Source of the DNA: Candidatus Zambryskibacteria bacterium RIFCSPHIGHO2_01_FULL_46_25
Lineage (GTDB): Bacteria; Patescibacteriota; Minisyncoccia; Phycocordibacterales; Zambryskibacteraceae
Assembly (NCBI GenBank): GCA_001825155.1
Contig: MHVH01000001.1
Coordinates: forward strand, 1-42,826
DNA length: 42,826 nt
Reading direction: 5' to 3'
The notes beneath the pieces were generated by a model. It saw nothing but the letters and a program-made list of their open reading frames with translations. It was not told the origin of the DNA and searched no databases. This document shows, in pieces, positions 5,201-26,696 of the stretch; positions within the stretch are counted from its first letter, which is position 1, and the number at the start of each line of letters is the position of its first letter. The position numbers and the translations under genes were made by a program.

Positions 5201-5921
5201 TTTTATTCTCGGCCATTCCGGTCGCTACCAAATTTCCTTCCACAACAAGTATCCCCGCACCGCCGTGCCTCGCCTTCACGATAGTGCCGGGCTCAATAGT
5301 AAGCGTCGTGCTGGCGGAAACGGTGACAGTATTTTCGAGAATATAAACTCCTTCGCCGGGAGACCATGTCGTATCGGCAGAAATGATGCCAGAAATGCTG
5401 ACAGTAGGAGAAGAAGATGCTGACTCGATAATATTGGCTACGCCGGGAGTTGGCGTTGTAGCTAACCATGTATCATCCGTTTGACGCTGAAGAGAGTTCC
5501 CGTCACCAGTAGCTCCTGTCGATGATGCATATGTAACCGTGTCCGTAGTAAAATCGCTAAGCGTAATTGAGATCGTTTCTCCATCATTACTTAATGAGTT
5601 CCATGAGCTGTCGAATAGTCGGCCACTATAACTTGGATAATCAATCAGGAATTGACTGCTATCGTCGGCGATAACAGCATACTCGCCGGTAAGCATGATG
5701 TCCCCTCCTTGTATATGAGCGATGCCGTGACTGGTGCCATCCTCAAATAATCTATGCGACGACAAGGTACGGGCCGGGCCGTCGTTACGCACCTCAATCC
5801 ATTCATGCCCTTCGTCAACGCCCGGTTCAGGGAGATCATACATGATTTCATTTATGATGATGTTGGCATGCGAAATAAGCGGAAGAGATATTAGCAGTGT
5901 GATTAAAAATAGCTTCTTCAT
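2214..5921 (-). CDS. Secreted multidomain protein: signal peptide, lamin-tail-like domain, duplicated beta-helix segments, LCAT/lipase-like alpha/beta hydrolase
   Basis: N-terminal MKKLFLITLLISLPLISHA; NIIINEIMYD..GHEWIEVRNDG (lamin-tail style); repeated beta-helix-like segments; PVIIVPGILSSQL, FPYDWRLD, VDLVAHSMGGLLVKKYL (GxSxG-type nucleophile elbow, AHSMG). Confidence 0.75.
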   Translation of the reverse strand: MKKLFLITLLISLPLISHANIIINEIMYDLPEPGVDEGHEWIEVRNDGPARTLSSHRLFEDGTSHGIAHIQGGDIMLTGEYAVIADDSSQFLIDYPSYSGRLFDSSWNSLSNDGETISITLSDFTTDTVTYASSTGATGDGNSLQRQTDDTWLATTPTPGVANIIESASSSPTVSISGIISADTTWSPGEGVYILENTVTVSASTTLTIEPGTIVKARHGGAGILVVEGNLVATGMAENKIYFTSLLDDSLGGDSDGIEGAVGAVKDWRGIHFKPGSSGNLNYVTLRYAGYVGAGAQSGIENEGGTIQINHSTITDNYIRGIYNGSGTIIVADSVLQNQQYGIQVMAGDVTINNSTITNNSIFGFDAYGVNSLTLLNNNFSNNTKTGRVGAGAIFNHSGNTSYDTTNRGFEITGIVQGDVSWHSSDLPLIIADSNIVWIGASSTLNISPGSIIKFGTAGQMIVEGSLVINGTESAKVYLTSLKDDSIGGDTNNDGVVSAPAPMDWNGVEFKSGSTGNISYAVMQYAGGFNGISRAVIYNLGGNLTFNNIKFSNNYANDIYQNAGSAVITHSQFSTSTTYAIFNAGTDVVDARENWWGSNAGPTIPSQPIGPNPRITENVLYEPWIGRDPSLPNPVIIVPGILSSQLVNAVNSEVWPAGVLLLSPLDLHLNQLSLLEDGVTPSSDIQVGNLIDSIGDSDFFLGLSNLIESQGYQENSDLFMFPYDWRLDLQILALGLKEKIEQIKVLTGAEKVDLVAHSMGGLLVKKYLKDYGGDSVDVFLDIGTPHTGSPKAFKILNYGDNLDATFFFKLLGLDGDRVKIISQNMPSIYQLLPSRNYFDDTQYYVSDMTNGTNRLDYEETKDYLKSQGRNNTLVDRADEFHQEIDNLNPADYGVRTYNFVGCGTPTIGQFYILEDGVHPIYNIRMINGDGTVPLKSAEAITASSTYYVRSAQHAIMPSTSGVRDLIAEILTSTSTQSLDISAYSNIATDSTGCTIPDGRIVSFHSPIDLHIYDSSGNHAGPDGNGDIENDISGVVYEVIDGNKFAYLPVGTDYTVKGSATSEGSFDARIQEVVDGEVATTTIFADIPLSSTTQAQFDLNSNIPSQIYLDSGNDGVFESSYVVSTTTQGFLESTGKISVIVETAVTETSDRANSKPAVQSREQEATSSPEVLGVATTTPIIETAPVAAVSQLPLSGEEENVIEKPATENTATVYKSLTQKVGGVFKKLWSWIKSRL

Positions 5922-7018
5922 TATTTTGATCTAAGGAAAAATTTTTTTAGAGTTTGAAGCCAGCCGAACTTCACGGCAGTAGCAGTCTGCAACTCCGCCA
6001 CTTCTGTTTCTCCCGGCTCAGCCGGTAATTCCCCACTTAGCTGTCCAACAGCTAAGTGGGGCGGAGGGATATTTGCCATTTGTTGTCTCAAGAGAGCAAT
6101 CTGATTTTGGAGATACGCGGCGCGCTCGGCCTTATCCTTCTCAATTTTTACCAGAATATCCTGCGTCTGCTGGCTTTCACCTATAGTCATGATAGTGACG
6201 CCATATACATTCGTCGGAGTAAGGCCGGTCGTCTTGGAACCGAAGGAAATACTCTGTCCGGGCCTAATGATGGTATCCCGGGGGAAAGCAAAAATCTTTT
6301 CACCCGACACAAGCGCCCGGCCAAAGAGATTTACTTCTTGCCCGGAACCATTTTCTATCTCAATCCTTTCCGGCAAAGCCGACTTTATAGAGAGTTTGGG
6401 ATCGATAATCCTTACATTCACGCGAGAGATAATTTCTCTGTCTTTTACCGATGCGGACAAAACGACGACGTATTCTCCGGGATAATCATATGTGTGGTTT
6501 AAAAGTGGTCCGCCGCCTTGCGTGCCGTCGCCGAAGTTCCAGGAGAAAATATTTTGCCTGCTGTATGTTAAATTAGTTTCCACTCTGAATTCAATCGGGC
6601 TGCCCACCGCTCCGACCCTGTCTCTGCCGGCGCTGAACTCGATTTCTTCCGCCGTGTCATCAGTAGGAATAGATACAGGTGAAGCACTGTAATGCGCCGA
6701 TGTTTGAGTGATAGTGGCAGTAGTTGCGCCTGTTTGGGCAGATCCTACGGTAATGCTGTCTTTTATTTTCGAGAAAGTTGCGTCACCTATGCCGCTGACA
6801 TTCTTTATATCTTCTATTTTTTGAAAAGGGCCGTTCGTATTCCTATAGTCCACAATCCGCTGGGCATATGCCGGACCGATACCGTCGAGCGTATCCAGTT
6901 CCGCCACACCGGCGGTGTTTATATTTATAAGAGTTTGCGCGTATACAAAAACCGGCAGAAGCGCTAGTACGAATGTTATGAAAAGAAATTTAAAAAATAC
7001 CTTGTCGAAAAAGCGCAT
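5921..7018 (-). CDS. Secreted ComEA-like helix-hairpin-helix plus PKD-like domain protein
   Basis: Signal peptide then ININTAGVAELDTLDGIGPAYAQRIVDYR..VSGIGDATFSKIK (HhH) and SWNFGDGTQGGGPLLNHTYDYPGEYVVVL (PKD-like). Confidence 0.75.
   Translation of the reverse strand: MRFFDKVFFKFLFITFVLALLPVFVYAQTLININTAGVAELDTLDGIGPAYAQRIVDYRNTNGPFQKIEDIKNVSGIGDATFSKIKDSITVGSAQTGATTATITQTSAHYSASPVSIPTDDTAEEIEFSAGRDRVGAVGSPIEFRVETNLTYSRQNIFSWNFGDGTQGGGPLLNHTYDYPGEYVVVLSASVKDREIISRVNVRIIDPKLSIKSALPERIEIENGSGQEVNLFGRALVSGEKIFAFPRDTIIRPGQSISFGSKTTGLTPTNVYGVTIMTIGESQQTQDILVKIEKDKAERAAYLQNQIALLRQQMANIPPPHLAVGQLSGELPAEPGETEVAELQTATAVKFGWLQTLKKFFLRSK
6987..7018. repeat. 32-bp direct repeat, copy 1 (5' end of the ComEA-like gene)
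   Basis: aatttaaaaaataccttgtcgaaaaagcgcat, identical to 7891-7922. Confidence 0.9.
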
Positions 7019-24305: not shown

Positions 24306-25154
24306 TTATATCATTTGTTTAAGTTTGTAAGCATTCCCATGCTTGAGCATTCCTAAATACGAAGCTCTCGATTCTTCAGACGGATTGATACTTAAATTCT
24401 TCCTCATTCTTCTCTTCGTCACCGTTCTCAAGACTCTATGGTCTGGAAAATGCACCCAACCCAAAAAATCTACACCAGAAGAAAGAGTTTTAATAAAAAC
24501 TTTATCGGGATGAAGTTGTAGTTTTAATTTTTCATTTAGGAATAGTTCGATATATCGAACTATTCCTACCAGATGATTTTTGTCGTGAGATAGAAAAACA
24601 AAGTCATCGGCGTATCTAATGTAATACCTTATCTTCAGTTTATGCTTAACGAACTGGTCAAATTTGTTCATGTAGACATTAACCAAAAGTTGAGAAGTGA
24701 GGTTGCCCAGAGGTAATCCTTTACTAGGAGCAGTTTCAAAGCTTTCGATAATCTGAGTTAGAAGCCAAATGACATTCTCGTCCTCGATGTAATTCAATAC
24801 GATATATCGTAGTGAATCGTGGTCTATGGAAGCGAAGAATTTTTTGATGTCACACTTCAAAATCCAGTATTGTTTGGTGTTGTTTTTAGACACTTTGCCT
24901 GCAAAATACTTGAATCTTTCCAGAGCTTTGTGCGTGCCTTTGTTTATACGGCAAGAATATGAGTCGGAGATGAACTTTTTATCGAAATAGGGATAAAGAA
25001 CTCTGTAGATAGCATGATGCAAGAGTCTATCTCGGACGGAAGCTTTGTGGATGTTTCTGGGCTTGGGGTCAGAAATGTTGAAGGCGTGATAAGGACCGTG
25101 GGTGTAGGTCTTATTTTTTAAATCCTGATGGAGAGCAAGGATATTGTCCATCAA
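24306..25154 (-). CDS. DGR-type reverse transcriptase; homologous sequence continues upstream in frame to ~25276
   Basis: DPKPRNIHKASVRDRLLHHAIYRVLYP, ILKCDIKKFFASIDH, GLPLGNLTSQLLVNVYMNKFDQFVK (DGR-like GxxxSQ motif), YIRYADDFVFLS (YADD). Upstream in-frame FNRFCHTYEHIISVENLLEAWKEFLNGKRGKRDVQEFHLNL fits an RT N-terminus. Confidence 0.92.
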   Translation of the reverse strand: MMDNILALHQDLKNKTYTHGPYHAFNISDPKPRNIHKASVRDRLLHHAIYRVLYPYFDKKFISDSYSCRINKGTHKALERFKYFAGKVSKNNTKQYWILKCDIKKFFASIDHDSLRYIVLNYIEDENVIWLLTQIIESFETAPSKGLPLGNLTSQLLVNVYMNKFDQFVKHKLKIRYYIRYADDFVFLSHDKNHLVGIVRYIELFLNEKLKLQLHPDKVFIKTLSSGVDFLGWVHFPDHRVLRTVTKRRMRKNLSINPSEESRASYLGMLKHGNAYKLKQMI

Positions 25155-25276
25155 ATTTAAATGGAACTCTTGGACGTCTCGTTTACCACGCTTGCCATTT
25201 AGGAATTCTTTCCAGGCTTCAAGCAGATTCTCAACCGAGATGATATGCTCATAGGTATGACAGAACCTATTAAAAG

Positions 25277-25286
25277 CCCCCCCCCC
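25277..25286. repeat. 10-nt homopolymer C/G tract between avd and RT 5' ends
   Basis: + strand taaaag(C)10aacggg. Confidence 0.95.
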
Positions 25287-25294
25287 AACGGGTT

Positions 25295-25660
25295 TTGCCC
25301 GGAGTTTTGGAAAAGATTAAGTGTGCTTATGTTGTCTGGCATAAAACTCATATAATTCTACCCCAAGTAAACCGATATACACTCGGAAACAAGATCGATA
25401 AGTTATTTATCGAGATAATAGGAAATGTCAGCGCTGCATCTTTCCTGCCGAAAGAGGAGAGGTTACCGGACGTGAGAAAATCAATCAGGAAACTGGACGT
25501 ACTTAAAATCTTGCTAATGGTCTTATGGGAGACAAAATCGATTACAAACAAAAAATATATTGAAATTTCTTCATTCCTAGATGAAATCGGAAGAATGCTT
25601 GGAGGTTGGCGTAATCAAATTTTAAAACAAAACTCCCAAACCGAAGTCTGGGAGAAATGA
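25295..25660 (+). CDS. avd: DGR accessory protein Avd-like (four-helix bundle)
   Basis: LPQVNRYTLGNKIDKLFIEIIGN...RLPDVRKSIRKLDVLKILLMVLWETKSITNKKYIEISSFLDEIGRMLGGWRNQI; start TTG as given or further upstream across the C tract. Confidence 0.85.
   Translation: MPGVLEKIKCAYVVWHKTHIILPQVNRYTLGNKIDKLFIEIIGNVSAASFLPKEERLPDVRKSIRKLDVLKILLMVLWETKSITNKKYIEISSFLDEIGRMLGGWRNQILKQNSQTEVWEK
25628..25655 (-). terminator. Rho-independent terminator after the TR (UUCG tetraloop)
   Basis: Minus strand ctcccagac ttcg gtttgggag ttttgtttt; 9-bp stem with one G-T wobble; embedded antisense in the avd 3' end. Confidence 0.7.
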
Positions 25661-25670
25661 GAGATTTGCG

Positions 25671-25766
25671 CACGCCCGCGAAGCGGTAGTTCCGGTTCCA
25701 CCTATTGTCGTTCCGGTTGACGTTCACCCTACGCTTGCCGTCGTTGCGGTTGAAGATCGCGTAGCA
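25671..25766 (-). repeat. DGR template repeat (TR)
   Basis: Aligns without gaps to 26091-26186 (offset 420). In frame it reads CYAIFNRNDGKRRVNVNRNDNRWNRNYRFAGVRK with AAC/AAT codons at variable positions. Confidence 0.88.
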
Positions 25767-25986
25767 TTGTACAATAAGCCATCTTTGCCACTGCCCCTCG
25801 AATACTCTTGGAGCTGTACAGTATTCCGCATCATAATGCGTTAGCTTACCATACCAAGTATCTTCATTTTTTGAGTTTGCATGCGCTACTCTTTCCGAAA
25901 CCTTGGTCGCGGAAATTCTCGGCGCATGGATACTGGATTCGGGGACTGGAAACCTTGGTCGCCAATACTTCCCTACTACCACGAAT

Positions 25987-25992
25987 ATTATA
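25987..25992 (-). promoter_or_regulatory. Candidate -10 (TATAAT) for TR RNA
   Basis: Minus strand tttttgtataat between the target-gene terminator and TR; no convincing -35. Confidence 0.3.
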
Positions 25993-26002
25993 CAAAAATT
26001 CA

Positions 26003-26030
26003 GGGCGAGCATTCTTGCGAATGCTCGCCC
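26003..26030 (-). terminator. Rho-independent terminator of the DGR target gene
   Basis: Minus strand gggcgagcattc gcaa gaatgctcgccc tgaattttt; perfect 12-bp stem. Confidence 0.8.
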
Positions 26031-26081: not shown

Positions 26082-26696
26082 TCACTTGCGGACGCCCGCG
26101 AAGCGGTAGTGCCGATACCACCTGCTGCCGCGCCGGCGGACGTCGACGCCGCGCCTGCCGCCGCCGCGGCCGAAGATCGCGTAGCAAGCACGACCCCGCT
26201 TGTCTCGCCACTGAACGGCAACAGGTCGCTCGTCGGCGAAGGCGGGATCGTCGGCCATGACTTGTGCCACAGCGGCGGGGTCGGGGCGAAGACCGTGGGC
26301 TTCATACTCGCGGTCAAGTTCGTCGACTGTCGGGTCGTAGTCGAGTTCGAAGAACTCGACTCTATCCTTCGCCAGCCCCTCGAGCGGCATCTCGGCGAGG
26401 ACTTCCTCGTCGATGTACCACTTGATGCGACCGGTGGCATCAACCACCTGTGCCGCCGTCTTGGTGCGGTCGACCTTGACCGCCCGACGAATGATGTTCG
26501 ACACCATCTCGACGCGCTTCTGGAACAACGCGAACATTTCGCTCGCGAGCTCCTGCATGCCGAGAACCGTTTGCACAGTCTCCGCCTGGAACTCTCCGGC
26601 ATGCTTCTCGAGCAACGCCCGGTAGTTCGCGACAGCCTTGTTGATCTGTCCCGCCGTTGTAACCTGCTGTTCGGACGGGATCATGGTTTTAGCCAT
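26082..26696 (-). CDS. DGR target protein with C-terminal variable region
   Basis: MAKTMIPSEQQ...; C-terminus CYAIFGRGGGRRGVDVRRRGSRWYRHYRFAGVRK matches the TR translation at fixed positions and differs at every TR Asn codon; ATG at 26696 has an SD (gggag). Confidence 0.85.
   Translation of the reverse strand: MAKTMIPSEQQVTTAGQINKAVANYRALLEKHAGEFQAETVQTVLGMQELASEMFALFQKRVEMVSNIIRRAVKVDRTKTAAQVVDATGRIKWYIDEEVLAEMPLEGLAKDRVEFFELDYDPTVDELDREYEAHGLRPDPAAVAQVMADDPAFADERPVAVQWRDKRGRACYAIFGRGGGRRGVDVRRRGSRWYRHYRFAGVRK
26091..26186 (-). repeat. DGR variable repeat (VR)
   Basis: Paralogous to TR; 16 of 21 mismatches lie at TR coding-strand adenines. Confidence 0.88.

Follow-up and report, generated by a model that had tools for sequence, protein, structure and literature searches.

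The window, i.e. the whole 42,826-nucleotide stretch of Candidatus Zambryskibacteria DNA that was analysed, carries a complete DGR in which target, variable repeat (VR), template repeat (TR), avd and reverse transcriptase (RT) are all present (Table 1). As judged from sequence, it is with strong confidence a phase-variable DGR, chromosomal and patescibacterial, with three separate transcription units, a discrete TR RNA, a divergent avd and a repeat tract that would switch both Avd and RT. This reading draws directly on the layout, the RNA covariation, the conservation of the tract, the frame statistics and the shared switching register. DGRs diversify proteins fast. If the reading is true, the conserved tract at the 5′ ends of the two genes would show directly how cells restrain them, the mutator being placed under phase control.

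Table 1. Features of the DGR locus, with positions in the window.
Feature	Position	Strand	Remarks
DGR reverse transcriptase	24306..25351	-	Candidate starts ATG 25351/25342
-10 element (TGA-TATGCT) of putative leaderless avd promoter	25244..25249	+	avd ATG follows 7 nt on; antisense, inside the 5′ coding part of RT
avd	25257..25660	+	Conserved ATG 25257; Avd domain ORF 25295-25660
C10/G10 contingency tract	25277..25286		Read by avd (+) and RT (-)
TR RNA (predicted transcript, ~355 nt)	25625..25980	-	Leader, TR, 3′ pairing segment, terminator; both ends predicted
UUCG hairpin of TR RNA intrinsic terminator	25633..25654	-	9 bp; T-tail 25632-25624
3′ strand of long-range helix	25655..25662	-	TCTTCATTT in relatives, one base shorter in window
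Template repeat (TR)	25664..25766	-	
Structured 5′ leader of TR RNA, conserved	25767..25980	-	Helices 25964-25945, 25928-25880, 25854-25769 and inner ones
5′ strand of long-range helix closing TR	25861..25869	-	AAATGAAGA
TATAAT, -10 of putative TR RNA promoter	25987..25992	-	Predicted start ~25980
12-bp GCAA hairpin with T-rich tail	26003..26030	-	Between target and TR promoter
DGR target gene	26082..26696	-	ORF from ATG 26696; C-terminus is VR
Variable repeat (VR)	26084..26186	-	420 nt offset from TR; mismatches chiefly at TR adenines
Perfect TTGACA-17-TATAAT ahead of target gene	26787-26759	-	

The RT core matches RVT_1 (Pfam, E 9.5e-24), and the sequence contains an LGNLTSQ motif and resembles annotated phage DGR RTs. 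The plus-strand ORF 25295-25660 is identified as Avd by Pfam bAvd (PF22296) with 40.1 bits, the cut-off being 40 bits. In the best ungapped stretch of TR and VR, 17 of the 23 mismatches fall on TR adenines, the adenine-specific pattern expected of a DGR; in relatives nearly all mismatches are of this kind, and the six non-A mismatches of the window are the highest number in the set. The GCAA hairpin, which lies ~53 nt downstream of VR, is probably the terminator of the target and may also be a DGR target hairpin. In published phage cases, such hairpins or cruciforms are located 4-34 bp downstream of VR and carry GRNA loops (PMC3240598).

RT, Avd, adenine-directed TR/VR mismatches and a target with a C-terminal VR are likenesses to the DGR of Bordetella phage BPP-1. 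There, mtd, avd (bbp7), TR and brt lie on one strand, with avd directly 5′ of TR and 144 bp between TR and brt, and the spacer 3′ of TR folds and recruits bRT-Avd (PMC12875486). Conversely, avd is divergent in the window, pointing away from RT and opposing TR, the folded element lies 5′ of TR, and the RNA 3′ of TR measures ~40 nt; a cassette of BPP-1 type, in which avd is codirectional and a folded 3′ spacer separates TR from RT, is not what is found. By analogy, the leader may do the job of the BPP-1 spacer. A sequence-only reading of this DNA had assigned TR and RT to the minus strand and avd to the plus strand and had contrasted this arrangement with the codirectional target-avd-TR-RT layout. 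The TR/VR search and Pfam confirm the strands, and the contrast is right, BPP-1 and the other examined phage records with an annotated or detected Avd being all codirectional. Among 80 named Patescibacteria loci, avd is divergent from RT in all 79 with intact flanks, and a phylum-wide sample of 185 unique loci comprises 179 divergent, three codirectional and three otherwise arranged ones. Divergent avd is the norm of the clade and not a peculiarity of this genome.

The TR RNA would be delimited at its 3′ side by the UUCG hairpin CTCCCAGAC-UUCG-GTTTGGGAG, followed by the tail TTTTGTTTT; the hairpin (folding z -4.1) comes immediately after TR on the 3′ side, in the final codons of avd. A GC-rich hairpin, a T-run and strand specificity, the properties of an intrinsic terminator, are all observed: under strict definition, 111 of 177 unique relatives have a terminator at this place on the TR strand and six have one on the opposite strand, dinucleotide shuffles yield one in 39 of 885 cases (4.4%), and the stem covaries (score 0.484 vs 0.266). 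The hairpin was also considered as a by-product of Avd coding, and this was rejected. Indeed, the avd stop codon shifts among relatives and falls before the hairpin in 17 loci, inside it in 49, or beyond it; the hairpin keeps its place while the stop moves around it, so it does not follow from the coding of Avd.

At the other end, many relatives have a -10-like element ~230-250 nt upstream of TR, and the proposed 5′ end agrees with the conserved RNA start, GGTAGTAGG at 25980. Between this point and TR, ~215 nt are conserved throughout the phylum, and 29 aligned loci fold into a multi-helix leader in which 49 of 55 predicted pairs show compensatory change, and for the whole structure 53 of 64 pairs have changed on both sides. 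Leader and long-range helix together reach 94.5% paired cells as compared to 76.9% after shuffling, and slid structures reach 40-53%, a control over which the structure has an advantage as it derives in part from the same alignment. For this reason, safer support is given by the shuffles and by loci found with the covariance model of the leader, which matched at full length in 47 of 86 further Patescibacteria loci and in none of eight phage controls. No Rfam family matches the leader, a relaxed threshold giving chance hits only. The long-range helix AAATGAAGA/TCTTCATTT was first proposed by eye and afterwards counted; 91.1% of its cells are paired vs 83.3%, and its covariation of 0.268 vs 0.129 exceeds all shuffles. 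This helix closes TR into a loop next to the terminator. Since a leader segment pairs just 3′ of TR, the TR RNA looks discrete and closed. As modelled, this is a new covarying RNA whose closing helix is specified, for use in in vitro work on cDNA priming. Two copies of GCGACCAAGGTTTC are found in the leader (~25895-25960 of the window, minus strand), each capping a conserved hairpin (motif GAYYAMGGTTT). Extra matches to the leader RNA, several kb from the known TR, were observed in L053 (7915-8031) and L095 (7498-7628) and possibly indicate that each of these loci encodes a second TR RNA.

The sequence-only reading had foreseen this terminator, a start of the TR RNA near 25980 and a short transcript convergent with avd. 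The terminator stands, the start agrees with the TATAAT and with the conserved RNA start, and the short discrete transcript is supported by the promoter-like element and by covariation in both leader and terminator. An alternative is that the 3′ hairpin is a structural or RT/Avd-binding element only, with no terminator function, TR and RT being cotranscribed. It is unlikely, although some weight must be granted to it: the interrupted tail TTTTGTTTT is conserved and the hairpin adjoins the TR-closing helix, which hints at an added function, and RT lies downstream of TR on the same strand. The strong strand bias of the T-tail (111 vs 6 of 177) speaks against it. The same sequence-only reading had further raised reciprocal interference between TR RNA and avd. 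The two transcripts would be convergent and overlap by ~30-40 nt, and each might control the other through antisense pairing or collision of polymerases. This is a rather doubtful proposal, as the overlap is short and not conserved, avd ending before the hairpin or inside it in the loci counted above.

The likely regulatory feature of avd, as its sequence suggests, is instead the hypermutable tract at its 5′ end. A simple-sequence tract separates the avd start codon from the Avd domain, and it is found at the avd/RT junction in 77 of 79 loci, G/C runs of at least 7 occurring elsewhere in the same loci five times in 721,554 bases. In the enlarged set, 155 of 178 divergent loci possess the tract. 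Its unit size is 1 (134 loci), 2 (18), 4 (one) or 5 (two) and never 3 or 6; most tracts consist of C, and the others are CT, CA, GA, AACC and AGGAC repeats. A non-triplet repeat in the 5′ coding region is the mark of a contingency locus. In tract-bearing loci, the frame of the upstream ATG agrees with that of Avd 41 times and is one of the two others 65 and 47 times (112 of 153 out of frame), whereas in tract-less loci it is in frame in 23 of 23 (Fisher p 3.8e-12, an optimistic value because the loci are related and their independence is overstated). All three frame states occur among the alleles, which are compared between species, each represented by one genome.

In the window, the avd start is probably the conserved ATG 25257 upstream of C10, which at this tract length is out of frame with the Avd domain ORF, and TTG 25295 is an unlikely start. 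A TGnTAnnnT element ends exactly 7 nt before the avd ATG in 50 of 150 loci, and a Shine-Dalgarno-like sequence is seen in one of 150. The fixed -10 distance and the near absence of Shine-Dalgarno sequences suggest a leaderless message, so that avd is probably translated without a leader. Between tract and Avd domain, 74 of 155 loci have no start codon, 70 have GTG or TTG and 11 have ATG; in the first group, Avd cannot begin after the tract by an ordinary codon.

These data bear on the other ways in which the tract may be explained. Homopolymeric C/G runs of 8-14 can slip in transcription, and programmed transcriptional slippage or ribosomal frameshifting could let every allele make Avd (and RT) steadily in small amounts, with no heritable switching. 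Frameshifting could tolerate assembled alleles that are mostly out of frame (112/153). Nevertheless, this is quite improbable, given that the tract's place may be taken by di-, tetra- and pentanucleotide repeats, which suit slippage of DNA replication and not polymerase stuttering, and that the ATG frame relative to the Avd domain is not fixed. Still less credit is due to a transcriptional switch in which Avd starts after the tract, at TTG 25295 in the window, and the tract merely tunes promoter spacing or the 5′ UTR. The position of the tract does follow avd, and the TTG/GTG codons of 70 loci and the ATG of 11, as well as the TTG of the window, could bypass it; however, 74 of 155 loci offer no such codon, every upstream ATG of the tract-less loci is in frame with Avd, 7 nt separate the conserved -10 from the upstream ATG, and no ribosome-binding site is seen ahead of TTG 25295. 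Finally, it is scarcely credible that the DGR is a pseudogene whose tract and broken frames stem from misassembly or decay: the six non-A mismatches of the window fit it, but independent assemblies across the phylum have the tract at the same position, background G/C runs are extremely rare, the Avd and RT ORFs are otherwise intact, and out-of-frame loci retain clean adenine-specific VRs.

The tract is also read by RT in the opposite direction. The RT frame of the window contains no in-frame ATG, GTG or TTG upstream of 25154, although DGR-RT homology runs to ~25276, and this is due to the G10/C10 tract at 25277-25286. An ATG of its own after the tract is available to RT in about two thirds of the loci (100/152); in the others, the window among them, RT has to be read across the tract from its far side unless an unusual start is used. 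Of the loci where RT has no ATG of its own beyond the tract and has one at the usual 45-75 nt before it, 25 out of 25 bring RT and Avd into frame in one common register (both off in 20, both on in five), as compared to three of 13 control loci. In the window, tract lengths of 8, 11 and 14 put both Avd and RT in frame, and 10 puts neither. With C8 or C11 the products would be 133-134 aa (Avd) and 344-348 aa (RT), and with C10 they would be 32 and 47-50 aa, respectively. Non-A TR/VR mismatches do not differ between in-frame and out-of-frame loci, as is expected if switching is fast. Near-identical loci with unlike tract lengths were sought, and the single pair with >90% identity had the same length. 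The same genome contains a second DGR at G000:C6:119156-120238 (L240) and G000:C3:1-887 (L241), two contigs sharing ~70 bp at the 5′ end of RT; it has the same arrangement with nine G, by reading of the sequence, and is likewise out of frame. Elsewhere, the RT match is split near query residue 142 in L103, L122 and several distant genomes (e.g., G593:C5, G643:C9, and G465:C12), which suggests an insertion or a frameshift inside RT.

In the phase-variable reading, the TR RNA would start at ~25980 on the minus strand with its structured leader, fold the leader/3′-flank helix that closes TR and end at the intrinsic terminator overlapping the avd 3′ end. avd would form a divergent, probably leaderless unit on the plus strand, and RT a separate unit on the minus strand, beyond avd. 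Slippage in the tract would bring Avd, and in this subgroup also RT, alternately into and out of frame, and mutagenic homing would thereby be toggled on and off as a phase-variable trait; the assembled C10 allele would be OFF for both proteins. The tract at the start of avd probably switches the whole mutation machinery. From the sequence data we infer the transcription boundaries, slippage in living populations and the loss of homing when the frame is broken.

Simple-sequence repeats control the contingency loci of Haemophilus, Neisseria, and Campylobacter. The DGR tracts resemble them in their non-triplet repeats inside the 5′ coding region and in frames spread over three states, and differ in that a mutagenic retroelement is what is switched and that two overlapping divergent genes may be switched together by a single tract. 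Retrons, too, have a short structured non-coding RNA beside RT, as the DGR does; unlike in retrons, the TR RNA carries a TR whose VR copies differ from it in an adenine-specific manner, and Avd is present. No report of a DGR tract was found in the literature as far as titles, abstracts and word counts reveal. Patescibacteria are among the groups richest in DGRs (PMC8144416). DGR clade 2 of Roux et al. 2021 (PMC8144416) comprises Patescibacteria only, a host group that fits the window DGR, which probably belongs to this clade. The main text of that paper contains none of the terms avd, orientation, opposite, and gene order, and the passages searched report neither a tract nor a separate TR RNA.

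Extended to the phylum, it appears fairly safe to propose that the cellular DGRs as a whole are phase-varied: one slippery tract, read from both strands in some lineages, would co-switch Avd and RT, hypermutation would be a bet-hedged, heritable ON/OFF trait, and the free-standing template RNA would be a permuted form of that of BPP-1. The tract is absent from the three codirectional Patescibacteria loci and from codirectional phages. It is also absent from five viral-labelled contigs (L216-L220, IMG/VR) which have the same divergent avd/RT layout and in which, by inspection, ATG reads directly into Avd, as if locked on. This comparison of few loci hints that phase variation is restricted to cellular DGR copies. 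One locus, L074, has its best VR (5918-6041) on the strand opposite to TR, just after RT, unlike all others examined.
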